A DNA stretch of 64,000 bases from Phycisphaerales bacterium. Lineage in GTDB: Bacteria > Planctomycetota > Phycisphaerae > Phycisphaerales > SM1A02. Both the position numbers and the translations under genes were made by a program. The notes beneath the pieces were generated by a model, which did no database searches, was not told the origin of the DNA, and saw nothing but the letters and a program-made list of their open reading frames with translations. The DNA is taken from positions 1 to 64,000 of the forward strand of contig SIAK01000001.1 of the NCBI GenBank assembly GCA_009691805.1, in the 5' to 3' direction. Numbering within the stretch: position 1 is the first letter of the stretch; each line of letters starts with the position of its first letter. This document shows positions 4,114-52,541 of the stretch, piece by piece.

Positions 4114-4449
4114 ATGCTGCTCGAATCCATTCTCCAATCAGCGCAGGGCGACTGTCAACCGTTTCGGTTCGACCGCCGAGAGTCTTCGCGTTGGACGCTT
4201 CCTGGTTCCGCAAGTGTTATCGCGCTTGGAACAGAACTTGGTGCGACATTCGAACTTGAATGCCTCAAAGGCGCTCCGTGGTGGATGAGCGGAATCTCGA
4301 TGCAGGCTCCGCCGTGCGTGGGAACAACTGTGAGCGTTGGATTCAGCGATCCAGCGTTTCGCCATGCGCGCGCAGTTGTGATGCGCATTGATGAACTTGA
4401 TGATTGCGTTCGCGTCGCACTCAGGTTCGAAGATGCGCTTGTCGCATAA
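4114..4449 (+). CDS. PilZ-domain-like protein (putative c-di-GMP binding)
   Basis: 111 aa; RRESSR matches RxxxR, followed by G-T-x-V-x-V-x-F and a terminal VRVALRFE strand. The DxSxxG motif is degenerate. Confidence 0.5.
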   Translation: MLLESILQSAQGDCQPFRFDRRESSRWTLPGSASVIALGTELGATFELECLKGAPWWMSGISMQAPPCVGTTVSVGFSDPAFRHARAVVMRIDELDDCVRVALRFEDALVA

Positions 4450-4833
4450 CTGACGCGATTCTCATCAGGATGCAAGTATCGCTCGTGCAGCGTGGTGGAT
4501 CTGCGCGGGCATCGTCAATGCGACTTTCTCGAAGTGATGCACGCATCGTTCGTTATGTCGAGCGATGCATCCGATGTTTGAGTTGTCCTGCGGAAAGGGA
4601 CTCGTGCGACCCTCGGAGGGAATTGGTTGCATGGGAAGGGGATCCGCTTGACCGTCGACGCGGTGTCGAAACCGCGTTGGCAATTCCCGCTTCGCCGCCG
4701 AAAGGCGACGAGCGGATTTCGAGAGGGCGCCTGCGTCTGGCGCCACGGAGATTGAGGAGCGGAGTCTGACTCCGCAGCACGCGCCGCTAACCGCCATTCC
4801 GGGGTTTACGCGCACAACGAAAGGGATAGCACT

Positions 4834-5232
4834 ATGAAGCGACGGAGCTCCAATGGTTTTACGCTCATCGAAATTCTGATTGTCGTCGTCATCCTCGGCA
4901 TTCTTGCCGCGATTGTCATTCCCCAATTCACGAACGCTTCGCAGGAAGCTGCTGAGTCGAGCGTGAAGAGCCAGCTGCAAACGGTGCGAAGCCAAATTGA
5001 GCTTTATCGTGTGCGCAACAACGGCAATCTTCCATCGATGATGGATGACCTTGTGCAGCCACCAAACGGCGAAGATCCTTACCTGCAGCGCGTACCTGTG
5101 CTGCCATCGACCTTCGAGTTTGTCTGGGGCGACAACGCCACCAGCGCGACCATCACGGAAACTTGCTACTGCACTTTCACAGGCGCGACGCTTCCGGAAG
5201 GTCTCACGCTCGCTGAGATCGAGAACTGGTAA
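4834..5232 (+). CDS. Type IV pilin / GspG-like major pseudopilin
   Basis: Prepilin motif NGFTLIEILIVVVILGILAAIVIPQF; GspG-like length and sequence. Confidence 0.92.
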   Translation: MKRRSSNGFTLIEILIVVVILGILAAIVIPQFTNASQEAAESSVKSQLQTVRSQIELYRVRNNGNLPSMMDDLVQPPNGEDPYLQRVPVLPSTFEFVWGDNATSATITETCYCTFTGATLPEGLTLAEIENW

Positions 5233-5249
5233 ATCCTTCAAGACTGGCG

Positions 5250-5292
5250 CAAACACACAGCCGCGGGTCCCAACCACGCGGCTGTGTGTTTG
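5250..5292 (+). terminator. 16-bp perfect stem-loop downstream of first pilin (terminator, attenuator or mRNA-stabilising hairpin)
   Basis: CAAACACACAGCCGCG (5250-5265) / CGCGGCTGTGTGTTTG (5277-5292), 11-nt loop; no strong T tract after it. Confidence 0.65.
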
Positions 5293-5525
5293 TCGCGCGG
5301 CGCGTCGTTGAGCGCTCGTGCAGGTTTCTGGCCGCAGCGGCCAAAACGCTGCATTCGCTTTCGACTCAGGCGCTGCGAGTGAATCGCAGACACCTGAATT
5401 CATGCGTGCACTTCAGTCTTTCATCCCCTCACCGACTCCGTCGGTAGTTGTGTGAGAAGTTTGTCGCGCGGCGCGAGTGGATCATGTTGGAGGCGTGTCA
5501 GCACCTTGGAGCGATTTGGGGAACG

Positions 5526-5906
5526 ATGCGAAAAAACGCCTTCACACTGATTGAAATCCTCACCGTTGTTGTGATTCTTGGAATCCTCGCCGCCATCGTG
5601 ATGCCTTCGTTTCTCACCCCGGTGAGCGAAGCGCAAGTCTCGAGTGCGCGAGGGCAGCTCCAGACGATTCGAAGTCAGATTGAACTCTTTCGCTCGAAGA
5701 ATGGCGATCTTCCGCCTGTGGCTGGAGCCAATGGAGTCGATGGACTTTGGGATGCGCTCATCTTGAACCCTCCGGATGGAAGTAGTTACCTTGATCGCAT
5801 TCCTCGGCTGCCGAGTGATTATGCGTTGATTTGGGATGGCACTGAATTGCGCATGCGTTATGACGGTCTCGACACAACTCTTGCTCTGGAGGTTCCAACA
5901 TGGTGA
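5526..5906 (+). CDS. Second GspG-like pseudopilin, paralogue of 4834..5232
   Basis: MRKNAFTLIEILTVVVILGILAAIVMPSF; shared QLQTIRSQIELFRSKNGDLP motif. Confidence 0.9.
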   Translation: MRKNAFTLIEILTVVVILGILAAIVMPSFLTPVSEAQVSSARGQLQTIRSQIELFRSKNGDLPPVAGANGVDGLWDALILNPPDGSSYLDRIPRLPSDYALIWDGTELRMRYDGLDTTLALEVPTW

Positions 5907-6268
5907 ATCACAAACCACACGCTCGCGTTTCGCGCACGCTTCTTCTTTGCTGCGCAGTCGCGGGATTGTCTGCAGGATATTTTCTCGGTGCATCGCAGCG
6001 CGAAGCGAACGCCGGGCCGCCGGAGCCTTCGAATGGGGGCGGATCTTCGCGGTCGTCTACGGAACCACCAGGCTCCGCAACTGCTGCGCTCGATCCAGCA
6101 CTGCAACGCGCGCAGCTCTCGAATGAGATGCGCGCGCTTCGTGCGGAAGTCGCGGCGCTGCGCGATACGATGACGAGTGGACGGATGAAAGTTGAAGTGA
6201 CGAATCTGAAAGATCTCGGCATTGAAGAAGCGCTGCAGGCTGCACTGCGCACGACAAGCAAGCCGTAG
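5900..6268 (+). CDS. Hypothetical membrane-anchored protein in pilus operon
   Basis: N-terminal TM segment LLLCCAVAGLSAGYFLGA; overlaps the upstream stop; operonic position. Confidence 0.6.
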   Translation: MVNHKPHARVSRTLLLCCAVAGLSAGYFLGASQREANAGPPEPSNGGGSSRSSTEPPGSATAALDPALQRAQLSNEMRALRAEVAALRDTMTSGRMKVEVTNLKDLGIEEALQAALRTTSKP

Positions 6269-6293
6269 TTCGACGAGCGGGAGGGGAGCAATC

Positions 6294-6863
6294 ATGAGCG
6301 GGAACTGGAAGTCAATCCATCGTGGTTACACACTCATTGAAGTGTTGATCGTTGTCACTGTGCTCGGACTCGCGAGCGCGTTGCTCACGCCGCTCCTTGG
6401 CAATCGCGGTGACTTCGATGTGCAAGCAGCAGTTCGCATGTTGGTTGCCGATCTGACGTTCGCGCAATCCGACGCGCTCGCGCTACAAGAGCTTCGTCGC
6501 GTGCACTTCTATGAAGACGGGACAGGATGGTGTTTGGTGCGCATCGAGGAGAGCGATCTCAACAGCACATTTGATGCGTCGAGCGCGGATTACATTTCCG
6601 ATCCGCTCGCGGGCAGTGATCGGCAACTCGCGTACATCGTGCAACTCGGCAATGGCAACTTCGGCGGCGCGCGTGTCGAGAGCGTGGAACTCGATGGAAA
6701 CTCGCGCGATGTTTCCTTTGATGAACTTGGTGGAACTGTTTCCTCCACTGGACTTCCGGGCAGTGGGGGATCGATCGTGATTGCCGCGCCAGGAGTCCGA
6801 TACCGCATCGAACTCGCGCCCGTCACGGGAAAAATTGTCGTCGCGCGCATCGACGGCGGGTAA
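6294..6863 (+). CDS. GspH/FimT-like pseudopilin
   Basis: RGYTLIEVLIVVTVLGLASALLTPLL prepilin motif; GspH-like body. Confidence 0.85.
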   Translation: MSGNWKSIHRGYTLIEVLIVVTVLGLASALLTPLLGNRGDFDVQAAVRMLVADLTFAQSDALALQELRRVHFYEDGTGWCLVRIEESDLNSTFDASSADYISDPLAGSDRQLAYIVQLGNGNFGGARVESVELDGNSRDVSFDELGGTVSSTGLPGSGGSIVIAAPGVRYRIELAPVTGKIVVARIDGG

Positions 6864-6947
6864 TGCCTCAACGCACGACGCGGCAGCGACGGCGCGCGAG
6901 ACATCCTTCAGCATTCGACGAAATGGGGCAACAGGCCCCCTCGCATT

Positions 6948-8156
6948 GTGTCGACGCAATCGGTGTGGCTCCCGCCTTTTCCACCCGAGGACCGCGTCGT
7001 GTTGAGTTTCCGTCGATTCAAATCTGCAACAAGTCCAGTCGGTATCGACTGCGGCGCTGACGCATTGCGCATGCTGCAACTTCGCAGCAGCGCAGGCGAA
7101 GTTGCTTCCGCGCAACTTGAGATTCCCATCACGCGCGAACTCCCGCACGTCGCGTCATCGCGGCGTGACTGTGCCGCGGAGTGGATTCGCGCAGCGGAAA
7201 GCGCGGCGATGCAATGGAGAGCGGCGGGGTTTCGATCCACGCGTTTCGTGTTGAGCGTGCCAGCGCCGCGAACGCAGTTTCAAATTGTGTCGCTGCCATC
7301 GCTCGCACCTGTGGACTTTGATCGCGCGGCGAGTTGGGAGGCGAGCGATCGCTTCGGTATGGATCACGAGGACTTGAGCGCAGTTGCGCAGCCAACAAAT
7401 GCGCCCGCAACGGTCGATGGCAAGAGCGAGTTTCTGCTTGTCGCGGCTGAACGATCGTTCATTGAAGCGATGCTTGAACCGTTCTTGCGTCGTGGGTTTG
7501 AACCGATTGCGGTCGAGCCGCGCTTTACTTCAGTTGCGCGTGTGGCGAGTCGACACGCGCGACGCGAGAGCGATCGCGCGCGTGTGCGAGGCGTCGTCGT
7601 TGTCGGCCTCGACGAAACAATAATCATGGTCTTGCGTGGCGACGAGATTGCATTCGCGCGTGAACTTCCCGTGGGAAGTCATGCGATGGATCAAGCCATT
7701 GCCGAACGCCTCGGACTCTCGATCGAAGACGCAGCCATGCTGCGCGCCGAGACTGCGAACGCGACGAGCGATTCGCATGCAGCGCGAGCGGCGCGCGATG
7801 TGAGGCGGGGCGTGCTCGCAGGCATTGCGAACGAAGCCACCATGTGCTTCCGTTACTACTCCGTGCGATTTCGCGGCGGCACACCACCAACCGTGCTGGT
7901 GCTTGGCGCAGGAGATGCGGCTTTGGCGCAGGAAATCAAGCATGCATCGGGGATCGCGACGACGCTTGATGACGAACGCGGATCGATCCTCGCGCTTGCG
8001 CAGTCCCTCGCGCTCGCGCAGTCACTCGCACAGCGAGCGCCGTGCGAAGTTCCGACAATCGCAGGTGCGGCACAATGGATCGCGGCGTTCGGTGCGGCAT
8101 GTCGAACGACCGCAGCAGCGCGCGCAGTGAGTTCGCCGCGAAAGGACGCGGCATGA
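6948..8156 (+). CDS. pilM: PilM-like actin-fold type IV pilus assembly protein
   Basis: FKSATSPVGIDCGADALRMLQL start, VVVGLDETIIMVLRGDEIAFARELPVG; followed by PilN/PilO-like genes. Confidence 0.75.
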   Translation: MSTQSVWLPPFPPEDRVVLSFRRFKSATSPVGIDCGADALRMLQLRSSAGEVASAQLEIPITRELPHVASSRRDCAAEWIRAAESAAMQWRAAGFRSTRFVLSVPAPRTQFQIVSLPSLAPVDFDRAASWEASDRFGMDHEDLSAVAQPTNAPATVDGKSEFLLVAAERSFIEAMLEPFLRRGFEPIAVEPRFTSVARVASRHARRESDRARVRGVVVVGLDETIIMVLRGDEIAFARELPVGSHAMDQAIAERLGLSIEDAAMLRAETANATSDSHAARAARDVRRGVLAGIANEATMCFRYYSVRFRGGTPPTVLVLGAGDAALAQEIKHASGIATTLDDERGSILALAQSLALAQSLAQRAPCEVPTIAGAAQWIAAFGAACRTTAAARAVSSPRKDAA

Positions 8157-8821
8157 GCTGCGCCACTGACTTCAATCTGCTTCCGCCGCGTATTCGCGCG
8201 CTTGTCGCTGCTCGCAACGCAACGCGCCGTCTCACACGTTGGACCTGCGCGATCGCGCTTTGCGCTGGCGTCGTGTTCTCGTTGTTTGCGTGGCGCGCAC
8301 GTGTTGCGGAAGCGCGCCTTGCGAGTTTGCGCACGGAAGCAGCGGCGATCGTCGTGCTCGAAGAGCAATTGCGAGAGCTTGGAGCATCGATCCATGCGAC
8401 GGACGCACAGATCGCGCTGCAACGGAGCGTTGCTTCGCCCATCGACGCGAGCCGTCTCGTGCATGCGATTGCGGCGTTGGTTCCAGTGGACGCAGTACTC
8501 GAACGACTTTCATTACGCGGTGAAAATCTCAACGGCGAAGAACGCGCGAAGCGTCGCCGTGTGGAGAGCGCATCCGCGCGCCGCTATGTCTGCGAAGTGA
8601 GCGGTGTTGCCGCAGATGATGCGACGATCGCAAGATTCGTCGAAGACCTTGCGGCACGAGATCCATTCCAATCGGTCAATCTTGAGAGCAGTCGGAATCG
8701 CGAGTTCAACGGCGTGGAGGCGCGCGAGTTCCGCGTGTCGTTCAGCGTTGATCTCGACGAACGTTGGTCAGTGCGCACGGAGTCCGCGCATGCGCAGGCA
8801 GAAGGGGAGAAGTCGCCATGA
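8153..8821 (+). CDS. pilN: PilN-like inner-membrane protein
   Basis: FNLLPPRIR N-terminus followed by a single TM; 4-nt overlap with pilM. Confidence 0.7.
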   Translation: MSCATDFNLLPPRIRALVAARNATRRLTRWTCAIALCAGVVFSLFAWRARVAEARLASLRTEAAAIVVLEEQLRELGASIHATDAQIALQRSVASPIDASRLVHAIAALVPVDAVLERLSLRGENLNGEERAKRRRVESASARRYVCEVSGVAADDATIARFVEDLAARDPFQSVNLESSRNREFNGVEAREFRVSFSVDLDERWSVRTESAHAQAEGEKSP

Positions 8822-9441
8822 GCGTTGATCGTGCGTCGTGTGAAGGATTTTCAACGGACTCTGCGCGCTGGTCGCGCGTGACGTTGCTGTTGGTGGTGCT
8901 GACGATCGGCGCCGCAACATGGTTCATGGCACTGCCTCTGTGGCAAGCGGGCAGCATCGCAGAGGCCGAGGCAACCAGGCTTGCAGGCCGCATCGCCGCT
9001 CGCGAACGACTCGAACAAGAACTTGAGCGCACGACAGATGCATTCGCCGAACTTCAGCGTGAGCGGGGCAATGCATTGCGTCGCATTCCGCAAGATCCAG
9101 CGCAAGCGCAGCTGATGCGCGCGTTGAGTGAACCTGTCAATGGTGTGGGATTGATTTCGCAAACTGTCGCTGCTGGTAAGAGTGTGTCCGCTGCGCGTGA
9201 AGGTCCCAAGTCTTGGCGCGCGGTACCTGTGACCGTGTCGATGAAGTCAGACTTTGCGACGTGCATGCGCGTGCTGCACCGCGCGGAGCATTCCGATCGA
9301 CTTGTTCGCACACTTGAACTTGACCTCCGTCGAGACGCATCGGATGCGACCGGCATTCTCGATGTCTCGCTGGTTGTGGATGCAATCTGGAACGACTCCT
9401 CGCTCGAGAAGTCACTCGACACAGCAGGAGCGACGCGATGA
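8818..9441 (+). CDS. pilO: PilO-like inner-membrane protein
   Basis: Single TM then coiled coil and ferredoxin-like-sized domain; synteny; 4-nt overlap. Confidence 0.6.
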   Translation: MSVDRASCEGFSTDSARWSRVTLLLVVLTIGAATWFMALPLWQAGSIAEAEATRLAGRIAARERLEQELERTTDAFAELQRERGNALRRIPQDPAQAQLMRALSEPVNGVGLISQTVAAGKSVSAAREGPKSWRAVPVTVSMKSDFATCMRVLHRAEHSDRLVRTLELDLRRDASDATGILDVSLVVDAIWNDSSLEKSLDTAGATR

Positions 9442-10049
9442 CGTTGAGCAATGCACAATCTCCGAAGACGGGTTTGCGAGGCTTTCGACAGAAGTTGCGC
9501 GGGAATCGACGGCTGCAGTCGCTGCTGTGGCTCGCCGCGTTCGGAACGGTCGTGTGGGCAAAGCCAATGGGTCTGCTGTTGTGGGCGCGTCTTCGTGTCT
9601 TGACCAACCTTCCTCGCACCGCGATTGCTGATGATCCGCAGGCGCGCGTGGACGATGCGAGCGCGCCGAAGGAGCGCGTGATCGAACTCCCTGACTTCAC
9701 GGATGCAGATCCATTCCGTCTGCGTGGTTGCAGATTGTCCATCCCTCACACTCCACCACTGCCCGCGCAAGTTTCGAATCAACCATCGAAGTCATGCGCA
9801 ATAGTTGCCGATGTCACTTCGTCTCTAGAGGCAGCTGATCTCGTTGCTCGCCGCGCGGAGCGGTTTCGCGTGCACTCGGCTGGAAATGGATTGTCATGCG
9901 CCGTGATCAATGGTCAGGCCTACAGGCTCGGCGACGAGCTCGACATGGAAGGTCTGAAATTCCAGCTCATTGAAATCCGTGAAGCTGGCGTCATCCTCGG
10001 ACATGGGGAGCGCCGCTTCGAGATCAGGATTGGTCCGGTTGGATCCTGA
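9438..10049 (+). CDS. PilP/GspC-like protein (hypothetical)
   Basis: N-terminal TM, C-terminal AVINGQAYRLGDELDMEGLKFQLIEIREAGVILGHGERRFEI resembling PilP/HR domain logic; synteny before secretin. Confidence 0.5.
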   Translation: MTLSNAQSPKTGLRGFRQKLRGNRRLQSLLWLAAFGTVVWAKPMGLLLWARLRVLTNLPRTAIADDPQARVDDASAPKERVIELPDFTDADPFRLRGCRLSIPHTPPLPAQVSNQPSKSCAIVADVTSSLEAADLVARRAERFRVHSAGNGLSCAVINGQAYRLGDELDMEGLKFQLIEIREAGVILGHGERRFEIRIGPVGS

Positions 10050-10065
10050 AACGAAGGAGTGAATT

Positions 10066-12129
10066 ATGCTTGATGCTCGCCTCTCTACCGTTTGCGCCCG
10101 TCCATTTTTTTCTGCGTTTTGCGGTCATTCCATCGCTTGCATGGTGACGTCAGCGATGGCGACAGCCTTTGCGACAACCATGTCGCACGCTGCTGTTGTG
10201 CAAGATGCCGCGCCTGCAGCCGCAGTCGCGCCACCACCCGATGTAAACGCACAAATGCAATCGACCTCTGGTCAAGCGGCCGCGGCGGAGACTTTCACGA
10301 TCAAGTTCCAAGACACCGACGTCCTGCAGGCGCTGCAGATGCTGTCGATGCAAGCGCGTCGCAACATTGTCGCGGGGAAGGGCGTGAGTGGCACGGTGAC
10401 CGCGAATCTATACGACGTCACGGTGCGTGAAGCGCTCGAGGTGATCCTCCGCTCGCTCGACTTGAAGGCGGACGAAGAAGGGCAATTCATTTATATCTAC
10501 ACCAGCGAAGATTGGGGAGCGCGACAACTTCTGAAGCTGCGCCGTGAGAGCAAGAACTTCTCGCTGCAATACCTGAGCGCGAAAGACGCCGCGGAGTTTG
10601 TGAAGCCATTGCTGACCGAACAGGGAAAAGTTTCGTTCGTCGGCACGGTGGAAGATGGCTTCCAGCCCTCGAACTCAGATGGCGGTAGTGATAGCTGGGC
10701 GTATGAAGGCATGCTTGTGATCAACGACTTCCCCGAGCAAATCGCGGCGGTCACGAAGTTGCTCGCGGACATTGACACGCCACCATCGCAAGTCGTCGTT
10801 GAAGCGACCGTCGTCTCCACGCGAGTGCATGAGCAGAACGCGTATGGCGTCGATGTCTCGGTGATTGGAGACCTTGATTTCTTGGACTTCACGAGCCCAG
10901 TTGCGGCAGCGAACGATCTCTTTAAGGGCAACAGTGGCGGCACGCCGACGAACGATGGGTCCGCCGTGACGACGAGTGTTGCGGGTTGGAGTGAGCCTTC
11001 CACTTTGCGTGCTGGTGTGGTCACCGACAATGTCGCGGTCTTCCTTCGATTGCTCGATCAAGTGACGGACACGACGATTCTTGCGCGACCACGCGTGATG
11101 GCGCTCAATCGTCAACGCGCGCAAGTACTCGTGGGTGATCGAGTGGGTTACCTCTCGACGACCACCACACAAACTTCCACGACGCAAACGGTTGAGTTTC
11201 TCGATACCGGTATTAAGCTGATTTTCCGTCCGTTCATCTCGCGCGACGGTTCGATTCGAATGGAACTCGCCCCTTCGATTTCGTCGGCGACATTAGAAAA
11301 AGTCATTCAGCCAGGCGGCGGCGTGTTGCCGATTCCCAACGAGAAGACGAATGAAATCGTCACGAATGTCCGGGTGAAAGATGGCCAGACGCTCGTGCTC
11401 GGTGGTCTCTTCACCGAAGAGACGGAGATCACTCGCCGTCAGGTGCCAGGGCTTGGCGACATTCCGCTCCTCGGCAATGCGTTCAAGGGTCAAGATGATT
11501 CTGTGGAACGACGCGAGATCATCTTCTTGATCACGCCCAACATCGTCAAGGACGAGATCGCGAAGGTCTGGTCGGACGAGGCGAACGAGTTTGTCAACGC
11601 GGTGCGTATCGGTTCGCGCGAAGGTCTGCTTCCTTGGAGCCGCGAACTCATTTCGACGAATCACAATCAGGATGCTGTGCAAGCGATGGCCAGCGGTGAT
11701 CGTGAACTCGCGATGTTCCATGTGGAAAGTTCGCTGCGCGTCACGCCGAATCAGCCTGAAATGCAGCGCATGCGTTCGGAGTTGGACGCGGGCGCGGATG
11801 AGCGCGCGTACGAGCGATCGATCTTCCAGCGCATCGTCGACAAGCAACTTCAGCAAGCCGAGGCAGATCGTGACGCGAAGGATGGACTTCCGTCTTCAGC
11901 GCCAACGCCTGCAGCCGTGCCTGCTGCAGGGGCGCAATCGCACGCGAGCGCGGCGCAATCGGCGAATGCGCCGATGCAGATCACAACAATCGCGGCAACG
12001 CCAACCGCTCCGACATTTTCTTCTCGATGGCGTGCGCCTTGGTGGAACCGACCTTCCGCCCTCGCAGCCACTTCCAATGCCGCGCCTTCCGGCACGCTTG
12101 CGGCAGAAACCCCAATTTGCCCTGAATGA
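10066..12129 (+). CDS. Secretin (PilQ/GspD family)
   Basis: STN/N0-like IKFQDTDVLQALQMLSMQARRNIVAGKGVSG; secretin core VKDGQTLVLGGLFTEETEITRRQVPGLGDIPLLGNAFKGQDDSVERREIIFLITPNIV. Confidence 0.93.
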   Translation: MLDARLSTVCARPFFSAFCGHSIACMVTSAMATAFATTMSHAAVVQDAAPAAAVAPPPDVNAQMQSTSGQAAAAETFTIKFQDTDVLQALQMLSMQARRNIVAGKGVSGTVTANLYDVTVREALEVILRSLDLKADEEGQFIYIYTSEDWGARQLLKLRRESKNFSLQYLSAKDAAEFVKPLLTEQGKVSFVGTVEDGFQPSNSDGGSDSWAYEGMLVINDFPEQIAAVTKLLADIDTPPSQVVVEATVVSTRVHEQNAYGVDVSVIGDLDFLDFTSPVAAANDLFKGNSGGTPTNDGSAVTTSVAGWSEPSTLRAGVVTDNVAVFLRLLDQVTDTTILARPRVMALNRQRAQVLVGDRVGYLSTTTTQTSTTQTVEFLDTGIKLIFRPFISRDGSIRMELAPSISSATLEKVIQPGGGVLPIPNEKTNEIVTNVRVKDGQTLVLGGLFTEETEITRRQVPGLGDIPLLGNAFKGQDDSVERREIIFLITPNIVKDEIAKVWSDEANEFVNAVRIGSREGLLPWSRELISTNHNQDAVQAMASGDRELAMFHVESSLRVTPNQPEMQRMRSELDAGADERAYERSIFQRIVDKQLQQAEADRDAKDGLPSSAPTPAAVPAAGAQSHASAAQSANAPMQITTIAATPTAPTFSSRWRAPWWNRPSALAATSNAAPSGTLAAETPICPE

Positions 12130-12194
12130 GTGCATCGCTCGTGCCGATGCCATGAGTGGAGATCGCTGCACGCGCAGCGAATAAGGAAACTTGC

Positions 12195-13433
12195 ATGCAC
12201 GCATTTCGATCACGATCTTTCACCACTGTGTTGACGCTGCTTGCGGTCAGTTCCTCATGCCTTGTCGGATGCGGTGGGCCGACGAAGCAAGGTATCGTCG
12301 CGCGGCAAGAGGCGAATAGTCGTTTCGCGAAAACGACGAGCGTGGTGAGCTACGACCAGGCGCGGCAGGCGTTTGAGTCGGGCGATCTTTCGAGTGCGCA
12401 GAAGCACATTCGCGAGGCGATTGCTCGCTCTGATCAAGAGCCGCGCTACTGGGCGCTCTTGGGTCGTATCGAATTGGAATCCCGTCGACTCGAAGAGGCG
12501 CGCGTGGCTCTCGACAAGGCGGTGACGCTCGACCCAAACTACGCAGAAGGCTATTACTTCCGCGGAGTGGTGATGGAGCGATGGTCGCAAGACGAGAAGG
12601 CGCTCGCGGATTACCAGAAGGCTGCGGAACTCGATGGCGCGAAACTGTCCTATGTCCTCGCGACCGCCGAGACGATGGTCGCGATGCAGCACATCGAAGA
12701 GTCGCGCGAATTCTTACTCTCGAAACTCGCCTACTTTGAACACAACGCGGCGCTCAATGAACTGCTTGGCGATCTCTCCTCGATGGAGAACGATGACAAG
12801 GCTGCATGGCGTTACTTCGAAGTGGCATCGCTCATCGACCCTGAAGCGCCGATGATTTGCGAGAAACTCTTGCGAGCGCTCTACGCCGCACAAGAGTGGC
12901 AGAAGTGCCTCGATCAAGCGCGACGATTAACACGCGCGGAGAAAGACAAACTCAACGGCGTCGCGCCTGAATCCTTCGGCATGTACGAGGGACGCAGCTT
13001 GGCGATGCTCGGTCGATTCACCGAGGCACGCAATGCCTTCGCGAATGTCGTGCATCAGAACCCCGAACATCTCGAGGGTTGGATCGATCTCGGTCAAGCC
13101 GCGTGGAATGCGGGCGATGATGTGCGCGCGGAGGCTGCGTCGCAGCGCGTGATCGCGCTTGCGGAGAGCCGATTCGAAGGCTATTGGCTGCGCGGGCTCG
13201 TTGCGGAGAAGCGAGGCGAAACGGCCGCTGCGGTGCAGTGGTTTCAAAGGGCAGTCTCGTGCGCACCTGAGAATGCCACGCCACTCGTGAGTCTCGCGAT
13301 CGCGTTGCGTCGAAACGGACAGGATGCAGAGAGTGCTGTGATGCTGGCAAAGGCGATGAAGGCTGACCCTTCCTTCGCGCCAGCGAAGCGAGCCTTCACC
13401 GCGATTGATCCCACAGGTGAAGCGACCGAGTAA
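12195..13433 (+). CDS. TPR-repeat lipoprotein (putative pilotin/PilF-like role)
   Basis: Lipobox SSCLVGCGG; multiple TPRs such as YAEGYYFRGVVMERWSQDEKALADYQKAAELD. Confidence 0.8.
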   Translation: MHAFRSRSFTTVLTLLAVSSSCLVGCGGPTKQGIVARQEANSRFAKTTSVVSYDQARQAFESGDLSSAQKHIREAIARSDQEPRYWALLGRIELESRRLEEARVALDKAVTLDPNYAEGYYFRGVVMERWSQDEKALADYQKAAELDGAKLSYVLATAETMVAMQHIEESREFLLSKLAYFEHNAALNELLGDLSSMENDDKAAWRYFEVASLIDPEAPMICEKLLRALYAAQEWQKCLDQARRLTRAEKDKLNGVAPESFGMYEGRSLAMLGRFTEARNAFANVVHQNPEHLEGWIDLGQAAWNAGDDVRAEAASQRVIALAESRFEGYWLRGLVAEKRGETAAAVQWFQRAVSCAPENATPLVSLAIALRRNGQDAESAVMLAKAMKADPSFAPAKRAFTAIDPTGEATE

Positions 13434-13453
13434 CTGGGCATTGGAGGAGTATT

Positions 13454-14764
13454 GTGCAGAGGGGCTGGTCTACGTATTGCACGATTGCTGTTTCTCTCGC
13501 GGTACTTTTCGCGGGTGCGCTGTCGACCGTGGTGTACTTGCGCGCTTCTGGAGTGTCGATGAGCATCGCAGCCATCGCGTGCGTGCCCATGTTCAGTGTC
13601 GGCGTGTTCGGACTGATCTTCAACATGCGTCGCAGCGCAGTGCAGCGCGCGATGCGCGAAGAACTAGCGTCGCAACGAGAAATCGAAGCGCGCAATCGAG
13701 CATCGCTCGAGCGATCGAAGCGAGCAACGGAGGTCGCCGCGGATCAGTTTCGCGCGATGCTCGAGCAACTTCCACAGGCGGTGATCGCGGTGGATCAATC
13801 CAAGGAAATCGTGCTCATGAATGCGGCTGCGCAGAGCATGCTGCATGAGGGTCGTCTCTTGCGATCGAGCGCGCTGCCCAGTGAAATTGCAGCGTTGCTG
13901 ACGGCGACGGCTGCTGCGTCGGAAGGCACGCGTCGCTCGCGTGAAGTGACGCTGTCGATGCATGAAGCGACGCTCGCGCTGCGTGTGGAGTGTGTGGCGA
14001 GCGGTGGTCTTGCGATCGCTGTGCTGTTCGATCTTGCTGGCGAACGCGATGCAGAGCGCCGCATGGGTGAGTTTGTCGCGAAGGCAAGCCACGAATTGCG
14101 CACGCCGCTCGCGTCGATTCGCGCGTATGCGGAGATGCTCGAAGACGCTGACATGATCGCGGAGTCGGAACGCCGTCAACTTTGCGCCACGATGTTGTCG
14201 GAGAGTGATCGTCTCGCGCGCATGGTGGATCAGATGCTCTCGATCAGCCGCATTGAGAGCGGCATCGCGCGCATCAGTGCTGCACGAGTTGATCTCTTCG
14301 CCCTCGCGACAGAAGCAGTCGACGCGATGCGCGGTGAAGCGTCGACGAAGGACATCACGTTGATCGTGCAACCGTGTGCAGTCTCTGCGACCGCCGAGGG
14401 TGATCGTGACATGCTGCAGCAAGTGCTCGTGAATCTCATTTCGAATGGCATCAAGTACACACCTGCGGGTGGAACGGTCACGCTCTCGATGGATACGGAT
14501 CACCTGGCGCGCAGCGTGGTCGTACATGTCACCGACACGGGCCCGGGGATCCCACTTGAGGCAAAGGGCAGACTTTTCGAAAAGTTTTATCGCATCGAAA
14601 ACTATCGCCGTTTGGCGAAGGGAACGGGACTTGGGCTCAATTTGTGCCGCTCGGTTATTGAACAATTGCACGGTGGACAGATCGGAGTGGAGTCGACTCT
14701 TGGAATGGGCTCACGCTTCTGGTTTTCTGTGCCGATGGAAAGGGTAGGTCGAGTCGCAGCGTAG
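13454..14764 (+). CDS. Membrane sensor histidine kinase (PhoR-like)
   Basis: HisKA FVAKASHELRTPLASIRAYAEML; HATPase NLISNGIKYTPAGG, DTGPGIP, GTGLGLNLCRSVIEQLHGG. Confidence 0.93.
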   Translation: MQRGWSTYCTIAVSLAVLFAGALSTVVYLRASGVSMSIAAIACVPMFSVGVFGLIFNMRRSAVQRAMREELASQREIEARNRASLERSKRATEVAADQFRAMLEQLPQAVIAVDQSKEIVLMNAAAQSMLHEGRLLRSSALPSEIAALLTATAAASEGTRRSREVTLSMHEATLALRVECVASGGLAIAVLFDLAGERDAERRMGEFVAKASHELRTPLASIRAYAEMLEDADMIAESERRQLCATMLSESDRLARMVDQMLSISRIESGIARISAARVDLFALATEAVDAMRGEASTKDITLIVQPCAVSATAEGDRDMLQQVLVNLISNGIKYTPAGGTVTLSMDTDHLARSVVVHVTDTGPGIPLEAKGRLFEKFYRIENYRRLAKGTGLGLNLCRSVIEQLHGGQIGVESTLGMGSRFWFSVPMERVGRVAA

Positions 14765-14775
14765 GAGCCCTAGAG

Positions 14776-15183
14776 ATGCAATCCGTGCGAACCATACTTG
14801 TGGTTGATGACGAACCAGCAATCGTGCATGTCGTCGCCATGAAATTCACGCAATGTGGATTTCGAGTGCTGACAGCATGGAATGGATCGATCGCGCTTGA
14901 AATCGTGCGCGCCAACGAAGTCGATCTCATCATCAGCGATTTCCAAATGCCGATCCTCGATGGGATGCAACTCGCTGCAGCTCTCCGAGCGGACACGCGA
15001 ACCTGCAATATTCCCGTCATCGTGCTCACCGCGCGTGGTCATCTGCTTGGTGATGATTGGGAAGGCGCGTCGAATGTTCGACATGTTGTTTCAAAGCCAT
15101 TTAGTCCGCGCGAACTCGTCGCCATGAGCGAGCGAGTCCTTGCGGATGATCGCGGTCGTGCGGCCAAGCGGGAGGTCGCATGA
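14776..15183 (+). CDS. Single-domain response regulator receiver
   Basis: ILVVDDEPAI, phospho-acceptor SDFQMPILDG, K at VSKPFSPREL; no output domain. Confidence 0.92.
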   Translation: MQSVRTILVVDDEPAIVHVVAMKFTQCGFRVLTAWNGSIALEIVRANEVDLIISDFQMPILDGMQLAAALRADTRTCNIPVIVLTARGHLLGDDWEGASNVRHVVSKPFSPRELVAMSERVLADDRGRAAKREVA

Positions 15184-16796
15184 TGCCGAGTGGAACACCA
15201 GCTTTGCTCGCCGATGCGCGCGGCGCTTCGCTCGCGGAGCGCTTGCGTGGCGCAGGCGTTGTGTGGATTGAAACCGATGAGACCGGCGCGTCGTTGCGTT
15301 CCTACATCGATGATCCCAAGGACTGGCTGGTCCATCTCGTCGTGCGTTCGCGCGTCTTCCGCGCGGCACTGCGACGGGCGGCGACGGCGTGGAATGCGCA
15401 GCGCGCGTCGCACGCACCACTTAGTAACGGCGATGAATCGCTCGATGGATTGGTACTCATTCCGTTGCGGACGCAGGGCAGTGGCGCGTCTACCTATGGT
15501 GTCGCTGTGTTGGTCCTTGACGAAGCGATTTCATCAGGGACGCTTCGATTGCTCTGTGAAGGCGCGGAACTCGACACAACGTTCATCGCGGCGCGATTGA
15601 CCGTCGAAGGACTTCCGACGCGACGCGAAGTTGCGCGACTCAGTGCATTCATTCGCGCACTCGCCGCGTGCGATGCAGAGCGCGTCGATGGCAACGCCTG
15701 CGGCACGCAACTCTCCACCGCGTGGGAGGAATTACACCTTCTCCACTCGCTCATCGGCGGGCTGGAAATGACTTCAGGTCCCCGTGGTGTGTTGACGAGG
15801 GCTTGTGAAGAATTGAGTACGACGCTGCAATCGAGTTGGACTGGCGCGTGGATTGCTGATGCCAAGGGCGGCGACGGATTCGTCGTCGTGACGGGCAACA
15901 TCTCGCCCGATGCGTTCCGCGCATTCGCCGGACGATTGGGCAAATCGCCCGCAGGAATCTTCACTGCGGATGGTCGCGCCAATGCGCGTCCTGGCACGGT
16001 TGCAGCCGCGCCGATTTTCCAACGAGGTCGTTGCGTGGGTTGGCTCGCGACTGGTGATCGCAAACTTGGTGACCATGAAATGTCGAGCGTCGAGCTGAAG
16101 CTTGTCGCAAGTGTTGCCGCGCATACCGCGATCTTCTTGGAGAATGCGCGGCTGTTTGCGGATCTCGACGATGCGTTTGTCGGCACGCTCGCAGCGCTCG
16201 TCAATGCGATCGACGCGAAGGATCCTTACACGCGTGGACATTCGCAACGCGTGGCTGCACTCGCTCGCGATCTCGCGCTCAAGCATGGCGTGAGCGCGGA
16301 GGAAGCTCGATTGGTTCATGTCGCTGGACTCGTCCACGACATCGGCAAGATTGGTGTTTCCGAAGCGATCCTTCTGAAGCCAGGAGCATTGCTTCCCGAA
16401 GAACGCACCGCGATCAATGAGCACCCAGAAATTGGCTATCGCATCTTGAAAGATGTGCCGCAACTCGCGGGCGTGCTCGGCGGCGTGCGTCATCACCATG
16501 AACGATGGGATGGCAAGGGCTATGGGCATGGACTTGCGAGCACGGACATTCCGCTCTTTGCTCGCATCATCGCGCTCGCGGACACGTTCGATGCGATGTG
16601 CTCTTCGCGCACCTACCGCGCAGGTCGGCCGATTGATGTGACGCTGGTGGAAATGGCGAAGTGCGGCGGCTCGCAGTTTGACCCTGTGTTGCTGCGTCAA
16701 TTCTTGACACTCGATCTCTCCAACTATCGAGCGATGCTCGCCGCGGGAACTTCGGCGCATCTTGCTGCGCCCGACGCGACGCGGAGGGCTGCGTGA
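15180..16796 (+). CDS. HD-GYP-type phosphodiesterase with N-terminal GAF-like region
   Basis: HDIGKIGVSEAILLKPG, HHHERWDGKGYGHGL, RIIALADTFDAMCSSRTYR. GYP is GYG here. Confidence 0.9.
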   Translation: MMPSGTPALLADARGASLAERLRGAGVVWIETDETGASLRSYIDDPKDWLVHLVVRSRVFRAALRRAATAWNAQRASHAPLSNGDESLDGLVLIPLRTQGSGASTYGVAVLVLDEAISSGTLRLLCEGAELDTTFIAARLTVEGLPTRREVARLSAFIRALAACDAERVDGNACGTQLSTAWEELHLLHSLIGGLEMTSGPRGVLTRACEELSTTLQSSWTGAWIADAKGGDGFVVVTGNISPDAFRAFAGRLGKSPAGIFTADGRANARPGTVAAAPIFQRGRCVGWLATGDRKLGDHEMSSVELKLVASVAAHTAIFLENARLFADLDDAFVGTLAALVNAIDAKDPYTRGHSQRVAALARDLALKHGVSAEEARLVHVAGLVHDIGKIGVSEAILLKPGALLPEERTAINEHPEIGYRILKDVPQLAGVLGGVRHHHERWDGKGYGHGLASTDIPLFARIIALADTFDAMCSSRTYRAGRPIDVTLVEMAKCGGSQFDPVLLRQFLTLDLSNYRAMLAAGTSAHLAAPDATRRAA

Positions 16797-17128
16797 AACT
16801 TTCCTACGAAGAGCATGGCATGGTCGCGCTTGTCGTCGCGAGCGGTGATTGCACGGGCGATGCGAGCGAGCGATTGCGCCGCACGGTCGCGGATCGATTC
16901 GCTGCGGGCGCGCGTTCGGTCATTCTCGACTTTGCGGCGGTGCCGCTGGTGGATAGCGCGGCGCTTGAGACGATGCTCTGGATGAACGAAGAAACTGCGC
17001 GCAGCGGCGGGGCACTTCGTCTTGTCGCGCCGCAAGAGGCGGTGCTCGCGATTCTTCGACTCACGCGCCTCGCGGATCGATTTGAATCGAGTGCGTCGGT
17101 CGAACTTGCAGCAAGGAGCCTTCGATGA
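16793..17128 (+). CDS. STAS-domain anti-sigma factor antagonist
   Basis: Small protein with VILDFAAVPLVDSAALETMLWMNEE, including the conserved DS(A/S) site. Confidence 0.8.
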   Translation: MKLSYEEHGMVALVVASGDCTGDASERLRRTVADRFAAGARSVILDFAAVPLVDSAALETMLWMNEETARSGGALRLVAPQEAVLAILRLTRLADRFESSASVELAARSLR

Positions 17129-18885
17129 AGCAGCCACGCGCGGATGTTTCACGCGAGCCGTTTGCGATGGCGAGTGCGCCGTCGCGTTCGATGCAGCGCG
17201 CAATGCTGGGCGAAATGCTGGTCGCGAAGGGCGTGCTCACGAGCGCACAGTTGGCGGACGCGCTGGCACAACAGCAGAAGGATGGACATCAACGATTGCT
17301 CGGCGAAATGCTGGTCCAGTTGGGTTACTGCGATGAACATCAAGTGATGGAAACGGTCGCCGATGGATACGGAATTCCGTATGCGCGAGACATCGCACGC
17401 ATCGCCGATCCGAAATGCATTGAACTGCTGCCGCGAGAGTTTCTCTCTGAACACGCGGTGTTGCCGCTGTTTTGCGTGCGTGGCGTGGTGACGGTCGCGG
17501 TGGGTGAGCCTGCGAATCTCTATCTCTTCGAAGAGATCGCGCGACGCACAGGCAAGCAGGTGCAAACAGTCGCAACGACGGTGGGAGAGATTCGCGCGGC
17601 ACTTGAGTCGTACCTGCCTGCCGCAAATGTGTTCGTCATTGACGACACGTATGGCGAAGTGGACGAAGGAACATTCAGCGTCGTGGAACGCGATCTCGCG
17701 GAGATTGCAGATCTACGCGAAGTCTCTGGTCACTCGCCGGTTGTGAAACTTGTGAACTGGCTCTTGTGGACGGCTGTCCACGAGGGCGCATCGGACATTC
17801 ATATCGAGCCAGGAGATCGCCGACTTCGTATTCGCTTGCGTGTGGATGGCGCGCTCTTTGAAAAAATGCAGCCGCCGTGGCAGATGGCCGCGGCGTTGAC
17901 AAGTCGCATCAAGATCATGGCTGGGCTTGATATCTCGGAGCGGCGCTTGCCGCAGGACGGTGATATTCACGTGATGATGGAAGGTCGGCCGGTCGATCTT
18001 CGCGTCTCCACGATGCCAGGTCGTCACGGCGAGAAGACTGTGATTCGCGTGATTGATAGTCGTCAATCCATCGTGCCGCTTGAACGGCTTGGTATGGACG
18101 AAGCCACGCTTGCGCAGTGGATGGACATCGTGCGTCGACCGAACGGCATCGCGCTTGTCACTGGTCCAACAGGCAGCGGAAAGTCAACGACGCTCTACAG
18201 CGTGCTCGCGATGCTGAACGATGCAGACGCGAATCTCTCGACGGTTGAAGATCCGATTGAAGCGACGCTGCCAGGCATCAATCAGTTTCAAGTGAATGAG
18301 AAGGCGGGCTTCGGATTCGCCACCGCGCTGCGATCGCTCTTGCGGCAAGATCCGGACACGATCATGGTCGGAGAAATTCGCGACGAAGCGACAGCGTCTG
18401 TCGCAGTGCAGGCGGCGCTCACTGGCCACCTTGTGTTGAGCACGCTGCACACGAACGATGCAACAGCGGCGGTGACGCGACTTGTGAACATCGGCGTGGA
18501 ACCGTATCTCGTTGCGGCGACCGTGCGCGGAGTGCTCGCGCAACGACTCGTGCGAAAAATTTGCCCGCATTGCCGCGTGCGAGTTGAGCCAGACGCCATG
18601 ATGCGTGCCGCGCTTCTGCAAGGTGCACACACGATCGAATCGTGCAGCAAGGGAACGGGTTGTGCGCGCTGCCGAACGACCGGATTTGCTGGACGCATCG
18701 GGATCTTCGAAATCATGGTGCCTGACGAGGCGTTCAACGTCCTCGTTGCGCGGGGCGCAAGTCTGCAAGAACTTCACGCGTATCTCGCGTCGCAAGGTCA
18801 TCGATTGCTCCGTGACGATGCAATGCGCAAAGTGCGCGAAGGTCTGACGACGCTTGATGAAGCTATGGCTGTGACTGCTTACTGA
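17125..18885 (+). CDS. pilB: Type IV pilus assembly ATPase (PilB/GspE family) with N-terminal MshEN-like repeats
   Basis: Walker A TGPTGSGKSTTLYS, Asp/His boxes, CPHC...CARC zinc motif; N-terminal MLGEMLVAKGVLTSAQLADALAQQ and LLGEMLVQLGYCDEHQVMETVADGYGIPY. Confidence 0.93.
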   Translation: MKQPRADVSREPFAMASAPSRSMQRAMLGEMLVAKGVLTSAQLADALAQQQKDGHQRLLGEMLVQLGYCDEHQVMETVADGYGIPYARDIARIADPKCIELLPREFLSEHAVLPLFCVRGVVTVAVGEPANLYLFEEIARRTGKQVQTVATTVGEIRAALESYLPAANVFVIDDTYGEVDEGTFSVVERDLAEIADLREVSGHSPVVKLVNWLLWTAVHEGASDIHIEPGDRRLRIRLRVDGALFEKMQPPWQMAAALTSRIKIMAGLDISERRLPQDGDIHVMMEGRPVDLRVSTMPGRHGEKTVIRVIDSRQSIVPLERLGMDEATLAQWMDIVRRPNGIALVTGPTGSGKSTTLYSVLAMLNDADANLSTVEDPIEATLPGINQFQVNEKAGFGFATALRSLLRQDPDTIMVGEIRDEATASVAVQAALTGHLVLSTLHTNDATAAVTRLVNIGVEPYLVAATVRGVLAQRLVRKICPHCRVRVEPDAMMRAALLQGAHTIESCSKGTGCARCRTTGFAGRIGIFEIMVPDEAFNVLVARGASLQELHAYLASQGHRLLRDDAMRKVREGLTTLDEAMAVTAY

Positions 18886-18895: not shown

Positions 18896-20158
18896 ATGCA
18901 ACTCGACGCGAATGCAACCTTTGTTTTCCGAGCCATCGACGCGCAGGGTCGCGAGTCGAGTGGAACTATCTCTGCGCCAAGTGCTGCAGAGGTCGCGTTT
19001 CGTCTGCGACGCGAAGGCAAGACGGTGCTCGAAGTCGCCCGCGACGCGCTCGCTCGTGGAAACGCGTCGGATGCAACAGAGACAACAGCATCGCGTTCGA
19101 TGTTCACCTCTTCGCGAGTGCGTCGAACTGACGCGATAGATCTCTGTCGACAGGTCGGCGTGATGGTGGAGACTGGTGTGGGCATCGTTGAAGCACTTGA
19201 CGCGTACGCAACGGAAGGTGCGCGTCCTGAGTTCAAAGAAATTGTCGAGTCAGTTCGGCTTGAAGTCTCTTCAGGAGTTCCGCTTTCGCAAGCGTTCGCG
19301 AAACGACCGCACGCGTTTCCGCCTGTGGTTGCGGCGTTGACACGCGCTGCAGAAGCGACAGGTCAGCTTGGCGAGATGCTGGCGCGTGCTGCGGAGCATC
19401 TTGCGCGCATTGAGAAGATTCGACGACAAGTCAAAGCAGCGGCCACGTATCCGATGTTTATGCTCGGGACGGGCATGCTCATCGTGAGTTTACTTGTCGC
19501 CTTCGTGCTGCCTCGCTTTGCGAAGTTGTACGAAGACCGCGGCGCCGAACTGCCCGCACTCACGAAAGCCTTGCTCTGGGTCGGTCGCACGATCGGAACG
19601 CATGGATTGTCGATCCTGATCGTCGTGGCCGCGCTCGTCACCGCGTTCGTGTTCTGGAACCGCAGCGAATCCGCGCGGCACTTCTTCGATCGCCTGCGTT
19701 TCGGATTCCCAATCATCGGACGACTCGTCCGCGCTGCATTCGTTGCGCGATCCATGCGCACGCTTTCGACCTTGCTTTCTAGTGGAATCCATCTGCTCGA
19801 CGCGATTGCGATCGTGCGAGGCCTTGACCGGTCACCACGCACAGAGCGCTTTTGGAGCAGCGTGGATGCCTCCGTGCGGGAAGGACGATTGCTCGCAGAA
19901 TCCGTGCGTCGTGAAGGTCTCTTGCCAGCAACAGTTGCATCGATGATCGCAGCGGGCGAACGCGGTGGACGGTTGCCTGATGTGCTTGAGCGAGTTGCGA
20001 CCTTTGCGGAAGAGGATCTTGAAATTGCGATCAAGCAGGCGATGAGTTTGCTTGAGCCCATCCTCGTGGTCGTCCTCGGTTCTGTGCTTGGAGGACTCGC
20101 GATCGCATTGCTGCTTCCGCTCTTCTCACTGAGCAAAGTTGTCGCAGGCAATTCATAA
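18896..20158 (+). CDS. pilC: Type IV pilus inner-membrane platform protein (PilC/GspF)
   Basis: Two T2SSF domains: DLCRQVGVMVETGVGIVEAL and MRTLSTLLSSGIHLLDAIAIV. Confidence 0.93.
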   Translation: MQLDANATFVFRAIDAQGRESSGTISAPSAAEVAFRLRREGKTVLEVARDALARGNASDATETTASRSMFTSSRVRRTDAIDLCRQVGVMVETGVGIVEALDAYATEGARPEFKEIVESVRLEVSSGVPLSQAFAKRPHAFPPVVAALTRAAEATGQLGEMLARAAEHLARIEKIRRQVKAAATYPMFMLGTGMLIVSLLVAFVLPRFAKLYEDRGAELPALTKALLWVGRTIGTHGLSILIVVAALVTAFVFWNRSESARHFFDRLRFGFPIIGRLVRAAFVARSMRTLSTLLSSGIHLLDAIAIVRGLDRSPRTERFWSSVDASVREGRLLAESVRREGLLPATVASMIAAGERGGRLPDVLERVATFAEEDLEIAIKQAMSLLEPILVVVLGSVLGGLAIALLLPLFSLSKVVAGNS

Positions 20159-20248
20159 CCGCGCTTGACAGGACAGCCGCAGTCTCTACCTTGCGCATCG
20201 AAGTCGTCATGGATGGCGATTTGTTCTCAAACGAAAAGGGGTGTTGCC

Positions 20249-20485
20249 ATGGATGGCGTTCTCACTCAGCACGGCGTTCCGACGCCAACTCAAATCCTCA
20301 AGTCACTCGCGGTGGAATTCACACGCACAGAGCGGTTGGTGCTTATGTTGAGTTACACCGAAGAACTCACCGTGAAAGAAGTTGCAGCGGTGCTCGAACT
20401 CGCGCAAGGCGAGGTTGAAAAAATCCTCGGGCGCGTTCGCAAGCAAGTGAGCAAACGCCTCAAGATGCAAATCGCGTCGGCTTAG
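20249..20485 (+). CDS. Stand-alone sigma-70 region 4-like HTH protein
   Basis: FTRTERLVLMLSYTEELTVKEVAAVLELAQGEVEKILGRVRKQVSKRL resembles FliA/WhiG region 4; only 78 aa. Confidence 0.7.
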   Translation: MDGVLTQHGVPTPTQILKSLAVEFTRTERLVLMLSYTEELTVKEVAAVLELAQGEVEKILGRVRKQVSKRLKMQIASA

Positions 20486-21513
20486 TTCGACCACGCGTTG
20501 AGCAGCATCGAGAGATCCGCCGCATCGGTGACGCCATCACCATTGATGTCTGCGCTGCCCGCGTTGCCCCAATCACTCAGCAGCGTCGCAAGATCAGCAG
20601 CATCGACGACTCCGTTGCAGTCAAGATCCTCAGGAAAACAAGCGGGATTGAGTCCAACATGCAACTCAATGCGCGCGGCACTCGCGAGATTGAATTCGAC
20701 AAGCGGGTTTTCGCGACAGTAGAACGAAGGAAAGTTCGAACCCTGTTGCACCGTCTTCGTCAGTGACGTGAGAGAGAACAAGAGCCGTCCCTGATGGAGC
20801 GACTCCGCGATGTACTGCACGACGGATGGTCGGCTCATGTCGAGCTCGAAACGCATCACCGTATTCATCGGAACGCCGTCGCCTTCCACCACCGTGTCGA
20901 TCATGCCCACCGCAAACGGCGCAGGTGTCCATCGTTGTCGCACGCTGTTGGAAACATCGACCGCGACTCCTTTGTGATTGAATCCCAACGCAAACGCATT
21001 GCGCACCTCAGGATTGAGCACGCTTCCAGTTCCGTAGGGCGATGTCTCTTGCCAGTTCGCCAGCGAGAACGCGCCGCGAAAACCTGTTCCGTACAATTCG
21101 ATCGGTTGACCAACATCGCTGTCGATCTGATACGCGCTGTCGCTCGTAGGCAAGAAGACGGTGAACGGATCGACTGTCGAGTCGTACGCGAAGACGAAAT
21201 CGTTCGCGACCATGATTTCGATCGTGCAGGAGAGCACGGCATACGCGTCGCTGCCATTGCCCACAGGAATCTCACTCGACGTATTCCAACCAACGATCAT
21301 CTGTCCATCGCGATTGTCAAACATCACGGAGCCTGCTTCGTTGCCAAAGGTCGAAGCGGTTGGACGAACACCAGGCGAAGAGTTGAACGGGTAGTTCCAT
21401 CGATCGAGATCGGGGCCTGTTCTTGTGAACACCGTTTCGTCTGCGATTGCGACGGTCGAGCACGAAAGTGTTGCGAGCAGCAGAATCGCGGCAGAAAGAG
21501 AGGTAGAACGCAT
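20482..21513 (-). CDS. Secreted protein with C-terminal dockerin-type EF-hand repeats
   Basis: Signal peptide MRSTSLSAAILLLATLSCSTVAIA; two repeats DLDCNGVVDAADLATLLSDWG and DINGDGVTDAADLSMLLNAW. Confidence 0.8.
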   Translation of the reverse strand: MRSTSLSAAILLLATLSCSTVAIADETVFTRTGPDLDRWNYPFNSSPGVRPTASTFGNEAGSVMFDNRDGQMIVGWNTSSEIPVGNGSDAYAVLSCTIEIMVANDFVFAYDSTVDPFTVFLPTSDSAYQIDSDVGQPIELYGTGFRGAFSLANWQETSPYGTGSVLNPEVRNAFALGFNHKGVAVDVSNSVRQRWTPAPFAVGMIDTVVEGDGVPMNTVMRFELDMSRPSVVQYIAESLHQGRLLFSLTSLTKTVQQGSNFPSFYCRENPLVEFNLASAARIELHVGLNPACFPEDLDCNGVVDAADLATLLSDWGNAGSADINGDGVTDAADLSMLLNAWSN

Positions 21514-21730
21514 GAGAGGGGAGTGCGAGTTCGGGGGAGACGTGGAAGTGAGCCTAGGCAACGAGTGTTGCCTCGTTCAACGCACCGTTGAGGAAACTCG
21601 TTCTTCAGAGGTGCGAATAATGCGAAACATGACTCCATTCTGGAGCGTTGCCAAGTGCTGTACGGAGATTGTTGAAGACCGTAGACTTCGACCCCTCCTC
21701 GCATTCCAGATTGGGACTCGAGTCGCCTTC

Positions 21731-52121: not shown

Positions 52122-52541
52122 TTACTTCTTTCCGTGCACGATGTCGGCGTTGTTGTCTTCGCCGCCTTCAACTTTGTCTTCGCCGTAACTCACGATGTCG
52201 AAGTCGCGATGATCACCAGGCATGCGCAAGATGTACGGCATACCCCAAGGATCAGTGAGCCCATCGATGCTCTCCAAGTAATCAGGAACGAGCATTTCCA
52301 ATTCAAAATCTTGCGACAAGCCGGAGACGTTTTTCTCCGTCATGTACAGACGCACTTGCTGTGCGAGCGCGTTCGTTTCCGTGATCGCCTTCGAGCGCTT
52401 CGCGTAGCTCAATCGAGCCCACAGATTCGGACCAATGATGGCGGCGAAGAGCGCGATGATCGTGACGGCGACGATGACTTCGAGAAGACTGAAGCCACGG
52501 CGAGCGGAGCGTTGTTTGGACTTGGAGCGCGTGTGGTGCAT
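52122..52541 (-). CDS. gspG: T2SS major pseudopilin GspG
   Basis: RRGFSLLEVIVAVTIIALFAAIIGPNL and DPWGMPYILRMPGDHRDFDIVSYGEDKVEGGEDNNADI, the GspG Ca-loop region. Confidence 0.92.
   Translation of the reverse strand: MHHTRSKSKQRSARRGFSLLEVIVAVTIIALFAAIIGPNLWARLSYAKRSKAITETNALAQQVRLYMTEKNVSGLSQDFELEMLVPDYLESIDGLTDPWGMPYILRMPGDHRDFDIVSYGEDKVEGGEDNNADIVHGKK

Follow-up and report, generated by a model that had tools for sequence, protein, structure and literature searches.

A filament operon in operon-like order raises the question of where its cyclic diguanylate (c-di-GMP) signal would be made, degraded, and read. The operon in question lay within the window (the whole stretch of DNA analysed, 64,000 nucleotides, positions 1 to 64,000 of contig SIAK01000001.1 in Phycisphaerales bacterium assembly GCA_009691805.1), which was part of a 2.6-Mb draft genome with a completeness of 94.6%. 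It occupied the + strand at 4.8-20.2 kb as an operon-like run, extending from pilins through the GspF/PilC platform protein. A previous reading made from the letters alone (referred to as the sequence-only reading) had placed an HD-GYP enzyme within this operon, between a PilZ-like open reading frame (ORF) preceding the pilins and an assembly ATPase with two MshEN-like repeats, and it had proposed a self-contained local c-di-GMP circuit. The reading favored here, to which we give a probability of roughly 0.55, is that an operon of the type IV pilus (T4P) family incorporates a phosphodiesterase under two-component control together with a STAS protein, and that this phosphodiesterase acts on c-di-GMP made elsewhere.

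A two-component, HD-GYP, and STAS block in the filament operon

The HD-GYP gene was located within the operon as claimed, and it turned out to be the third gene of a block composed of histidine kinase (HK), response regulator (RR), HD-GYP, and STAS genes, packed directly before the ATPase gene; the HK, receiver, and STAS genes had been missing from the sequence-only reading. The block and the ATPase gene were as follows:

13454..14764, + strand: PAS-HisKA-HATPase histidine kinase (HATPase_c 5e-29, HisKA 3e-19)
14776..15183, + strand: stand-alone receiver, i.e., response regulator (Response_reg 4e-20)
15180..16796, + strand: predicted GAF-HD-GYP phosphodiesterase (HD_5, PF13487, 1.6e-37; 129 bits versus cut-off 27.2)
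16793..17128, + strand: STAS (anti-sigma-antagonist-like) protein (STAS 1.8e-13)
17125..18885, + strand: MshEN-type GspE/PilB assembly ATPase (T2SSE 5e-130; MshEN, PF05157, 9e-14)

The receiver/HD-GYP, HD-GYP/STAS, and STAS/ATPase gene pairs each overlapped by 4 bp in the window. The sequence comparison was applied to 60 orthologous loci, picked by a good ATPase match among 151 drawn genomes of the order and belonging to six families, together with the window (61 loci; L denotes fetched loci, C contigs of the window genome, and G141 the nearest relative genome). Across these loci, STAS was present in 61, HD-GYP in 59, RR in 58, and HK in 52, and all seven genes of the order TPR-HK-RR-HDGYP-STAS-ATPase-PilC were found in that order in 51; ATGA-type overlaps were found for RR-HDGYP (50/56 loci) and HDGYP-STAS (45/59 loci). 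Synteny of the HD-GYP gene in relatives had been set beforehand as a refuting test of the sequence-only reading, and its retention in 59 of the 61 loci indicates that the arrangement is not due to chance; the strong profiles and the order-wide synteny likewise ruled out chance ORFs. The linkage of the filament operon to c-di-GMP turnover is supported by this retention together with the invariance of the catalytic residues (see below).

Gene content, gene order, packing, and residue conservation were all observed directly: the phospho-acceptors were invariant in the HK (His, 52/52 HK orthologs) and, over 61 aligned sequences, in the RR (Asp, 61/61) and the STAS protein (Ser of the DS motif, 61/61). 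Pairwise distances of the block members correlated with those of the ATPase (r of 0.77 for HD-GYP, 0.73 for STAS, 0.60 for RR, and 0.80 for HK; 0/500 permutations), as expected from shared descent. Beyond the order, relatives of the HD-GYP protein were mostly scattered HD-GYPs without pilus genes; locus L198, from the same class but outside the order, displayed secretin-TPR-HK-RR-HDGYP, and Botrimarina locus L020 contained RR, HK, STAS, ATPase, and PilC.

Predicted c-di-GMP turnover

Judged by its sequence, the protein encoded at 15180-16796 is certainly an HD-GYP protein. An alignment of 29 orthologs showed D348, H354, H386, D387, K390, H415, H439, H440, D468, and D471 to be invariant; these included seven of the eight PmGH metal ligands plus the equivalents of D183, K225, and D308, and the PmGH counterparts of the conserved residues are essential or important (PMC4159591). 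The PmGH E185 equivalent was Tyr in the window, as in the Y/F subfamily of HD-GYP, which is predicted to be binuclear. The AlphaFold2 model matched PmGH, PA4781, and other HD-GYP structures in the PDB as well as tandem-GAF proteins; Pfam matches to GAF were sub-threshold only, and the model points to a second GAF-like domain at the N-terminus. The enzyme is predicted to destroy c-di-GMP.

The window genome harbored one GGDEF protein with intact RIGGDEF (contig C27), two HD-GYP proteins, and two Pfam PilZ proteins, and no EAL protein was found in this draft, where its 94.6% completeness could leave further enzymes hidden. Since no diguanylate cyclase was found in the operon and the single GGDEF gene was on contig C27, c-di-GMP would be made outside the operon. 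Given so few c-di-GMP enzymes, the pilus HD-GYP probably ranks among the main phosphodiesterases of the genome; in G141, it was the sole HD_5 match. Presence or absence of GGDEF was discarded as a test because GGDEF and HD-GYP occurred together in 77/77 genomes.

Possible c-di-GMP readout within the operon

The sequence-only reading implied local effectors, which would be the ATPase and the PilZ-like protein. Both MshEN-like repeats claimed for the ATPase were detected, the second only in degenerate form: (i) motif I (residues 27-50, MLGEMLVAKGVLTSAQLADALAQQ) retained 10/11 key positions, with R->M as the sole change; and (ii) motif II (residues 58-81, LLGEMLVQLGYCDEHQVMETVADG) retained 6/11, and it was separated from motif I by a spacer of 7 residues instead of 5. 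Two complete 24-residue motifs, each with Gln, were therefore not what the window ATPase contained. Among the 60 ATPase orthologs, Gln was found in none at motif II position 24, the Gln ligand (A 35, G 10, S 9, C 4, T 2), and Val stood in for Leu54 (position 17) in 56; in a comparison set of 29 PilT-linked PilB sequences from the same order, by contrast, motif II Gln was present in 27 (Fisher p ~8e-21, shared descent ignored).

The window ATPase scored 52.4 bits against the NCBIfam c-di-GMP motif model NF053729 (cut-off 38), and this score was rejected as binding evidence by a control: with the same model, T. thermophilus PilF GSPII-A, which has one good and one degenerate motif and does not bind c-di-GMP (PMC11731258), scored 52.5 bits, and GSPII-B scored 60.7 bits, so that an MshEN profile match is no proof of binding. 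Nor is c-di-GMP bound by XpsE/GspE, in which several motif positions differ (PMC5013675). Loss of the motif II Gln was in turn rejected as proof of non-binding, because PilF GSPII-B continues to bind c-di-GMP at 0.5-1 uM when a single Gln has been mutated; a non-Arg first motif residue is also tolerated in PilF (PMC11731258). Binding of c-di-GMP by the window ATPase is possible but unsupported, and its sequence makes binding less likely. Contig C47 (locus L190) carried a PilB-PilT-PilB-PilC cluster, in which the PilB adjoining PilT had Gln in both motifs; by sequence, c-di-GMP binding is more plausible for this PilB than for the window ATPase.

The PilZ-like ORF was as follows:

4114..4449, + strand: small PilZ-like protein (has RRESSR; KGAPWW in place of DxSxxG; AlphaFold2 fold)

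Its position before the pilins and its RRESSR motif were as described, and its PilZ identity was left to structure: no Pfam match was found even at E up to 5, no NCBIfam match was found, and a sequence search of the PDB gave no usable match. Its AlphaFold2 model (mean predicted local distance difference test score 82) gave the PilZ domains of YcgR, VCA0042, and BcsA as top PDB matches, with a probability of 1.00, E no better than 3e-3, and a template modeling score of ~0.56. Four relatives matched PF07238 at E 0.0046-0.056 (14-18 bits, below the cut-off of 22.5), one of which also matched a PhyR family (E 0.23). DxSxxG was better kept in related sequences, e.g., DAGDHG in L100. The protein was found in 10 loci, all from the window's own family, and its ORF was separated from the first pilin gene by 384 bp. 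With DxSxxG and the motif II Gln both lost, an effector inside the operon is not secure.

A self-contained circuit, with c-di-GMP degraded by the HD-GYP enzyme and read out by the PilZ-like protein and the MshEN ATPase, was consequently judged unlikely. It draws on the MshEN matches above curated cut-offs, a motif I intact except for R->M, a PilZ-like fold with RxxxR, and the fact that one lost Gln need not end binding (460 nM for GSPII-B Q218E; PMC11731258), but it has to accommodate a cyclase outside the operon, the order-wide substitution of the motif II Gln, which sets these ATPases apart from PilT-linked PilB, and the replacement of Leu54 in most of them, a published non-binder with an equal score, and a PilZ-like ORF devoid of DxSxxG and confined to one family.

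Proposed mechanism and points against it

For the favored reading, a phosphodiesterase under two-component control with a STAS output, we infer that the receiver contacts the HD-GYP enzyme and the STAS protein the ATPase, and likewise the direction of control and the effect on the filament. The HK would phosphorylate the receiver; the phospho-receiver would dock on the HD-GYP protein, making up a split version of receiver-GAF-HD-GYP, and switch c-di-GMP hydrolysis; the HD-GYP enzyme would lower the level of c-di-GMP, which cyclases encoded outside the operon would supply; and the STAS protein, encoded by the gene that overlaps that of the ATPase, would act through protein-protein contact, controlled by its phospho-Ser, on the ATPase or some other partner. 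The genome's other HD-GYP protein (L187) was a fused receiver-GAF-HD-GYP, which suggests that receiver and HD-GYP act together.

Several points weigh against this reading. Every step of the kinase-receiver-HD-GYP-STAS relay is proposed from sequence. HK was absent from 9 and HD-GYP from 2 of the 61 loci, so the signaling chain is not obligatory, and in the window's family 11 loci with ATPases of a sister clade had a related pilus locus without the module. The GYP triplet was GYG in the window, while Pro was present in at least 90% of orthologs; the PmGH P286A variant retained activity (PMC4159591). No Rsb-type kinase was found beside the STAS gene, the best RsbW-like match in the genome adjoining another STAS gene on contig C39.

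Loci L148 and L149 kept receiver and STAS genes, with HK and HD-GYP absent between TPR and ATPase. Coordinated loss was considered for the module-less loci (L155-L161, L163-L165, and L174) and dropped, because in the ATPase tree they formed a clade sister to, and not within, the one with the module; they may represent a different pilus system. Other module-less relatives (L175, L178, L182, and L185) had a pilin-like gene directly 5' of another HD-GYP gene, an independent-looking second case of such a pairing.

A more specific relay, in which the two-component system controls the HD-GYP enzyme, the STAS protein directly gates the ATPase, and the MshEN domain, instead of sensing c-di-GMP, now binds a different ligand or docks the STAS protein, is rather improbable. 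We hold it similarly doubtful that the HD-GYP protein affects pili in the manner of RpfG scaffolding, i.e., mainly via contacts with a GGDEF/PilZ partner or the motor, with catalysis being secondary: this would agree with the degenerate PilZ-like protein encoded next to the operon, but RpfG-type contact requires the GYP motif, which reads GYG here, PilT was not in the operon, and the invariant catalytic residues indicate that catalysis is under selection. There is only a slim chance that the module is a gene-order passenger, co-inherited and acting on other processes via the global c-di-GMP pool without a dedicated filament effect, because, even with a probable main phosphodiesterase in the module and, on another contig, a possible effector that keeps the Gln of both MshEN motifs, the tight packing from secretin/TPR to ATPase across six families suggests shared function, and a passenger should scatter more.

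Comparison with known systems

No description of an HK-RR-HD-GYP-STAS pilus block was found in the open-access literature searched (subscription papers being outside the scope). The block resembled RpfC/RpfG pilus control and Hmp STAS output, and by the criteria applied it was a member of neither. RpfC/RpfG of Xanthomonas campestris, acting in type IV pilus motility (PMC3749722), likewise ties HK, receiver, and HD-GYP to pili and has its cognate HK alongside, as the HK here lay just upstream of the receiver; the window differed in having receiver and HD-GYP as separate genes with a 4-bp overlap inside a filament operon, GAF-type N-terminal regions, an added STAS gene, and GYG for GYP. In the Hmp partner-switching system of Nostoc punctiforme (PMC6495340), the STAS output HmpV takes part in controlling hormogonium development and motility, the latter using type IV pili, while the STAS gene here was in the machine operon, overlapped the ATPase gene, and had no adjacent Rsb-type kinase/phosphatase; a mechanism in common with Hmp would be an analogy.

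The c-di-GMP-regulated ATPases of MshE/PilF type (PMC5013675, PMC11731258) shared family, MshEN fold, and a nearly complete motif I with the window ATPase, which differed by its degenerate motif II, the Gln ligand gone in all orthologs, and the longer spacer. The PilT-linked PilB system on contig C47 of the same genome likewise had an MshEN ATPase and a PilC platform, but it had an adjoining PilT and Gln in both MshEN motifs, and the HD-GYP module was absent in the 9 kb examined.

Other genes of the operon and the window

The remaining genes of the operon, and the gene after its PilC gene, were as follows:

4834..5232, + strand: major pilin / GspG-like pseudopilin (N_methyl 7e-9, GspG 8e-18)
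5526..5906, + strand: second pilin, GspG-like (GspG 4e-14; ORF from 5448, likely start ATG 5526)
5900..6268, + strand: small membrane-anchored protein, function unassigned (every family below cut-off)
6294..6863, + strand: GspH-like minor pilin (N_methyl 3.6e-6; ORF from 6222)
6948..8156, + strand: PilM-like (PilM_2 9.6e-8, above cut-off)
8153..8821, + strand: PilN-like (PilN 2.3e-7, above cut-off; ORF from 8042)
8818..9441, + strand: PilO-like (PilO 0.0024, below cut-off; position conserved in orthologous loci; ORF from 8764)
9438..10049, + strand: PilP/GspB-like (T2SSB 3e-4, below cut-off; position conserved in orthologous loci)
10066..12129, + strand: secretin (Secretin 9.5e-43)
12156..13433, + strand: TPR protein with lipobox-like N-terminus in its sequence, putatively pilotin-like (TPR_2 9.8e-24)
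18896..20158, + strand: GspF/PilC platform protein (T2SSF 2.5e-52)
20165..20485, + strand: small sigma-70 region-4 (helix-turn-helix) protein (Sigma70_r4 2e-6)

The operon ATPase scored 568 bits for GspE and 566 bits for PilB, alike and both below curated cut-offs, so that the machine was called T4P/type II secretion system (T2SS) family and assigned to neither. No PilT retraction ATPase was found in the operon; besides the PilT gene on contig C47, a PilT-family ATPase gene (33660-34712, - strand; TIGR01420, 450 bits) with a PilC-like gene (32420-33655, - strand) was found about 13 kb from the operon. A scan of the operon for promoters and terminators gave sites no commoner than in shuffles. 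The sigma-70 region-4-only protein, encoded after PilC, is a possible DNA-binding partner; within the window's family, ORFs related to it occurred in 10 loci. The window further contained a second T2SS-like machine, GspE-GspF-GspG (53848-55464, 52599-53810, and 52122-52541, respectively; - strand), and a gene for a secreted protein (20482-21561, - strand) with a C-terminal dockerin-like Ca-binding repeat DCNGVVDAADLATLLSDWG, as judged by eye.

Implications

An MshEN profile match alone is a poor guide to c-di-GMP binding, a published non-binder scoring equally. HD-GYP enzymes have usually been studied as scattered regulators, whereas here one is fixed order-wide between secretin and motor, and its block with kinase, receiver, and STAS protein makes a directly testable case of c-di-GMP turnover coupled to one machine.
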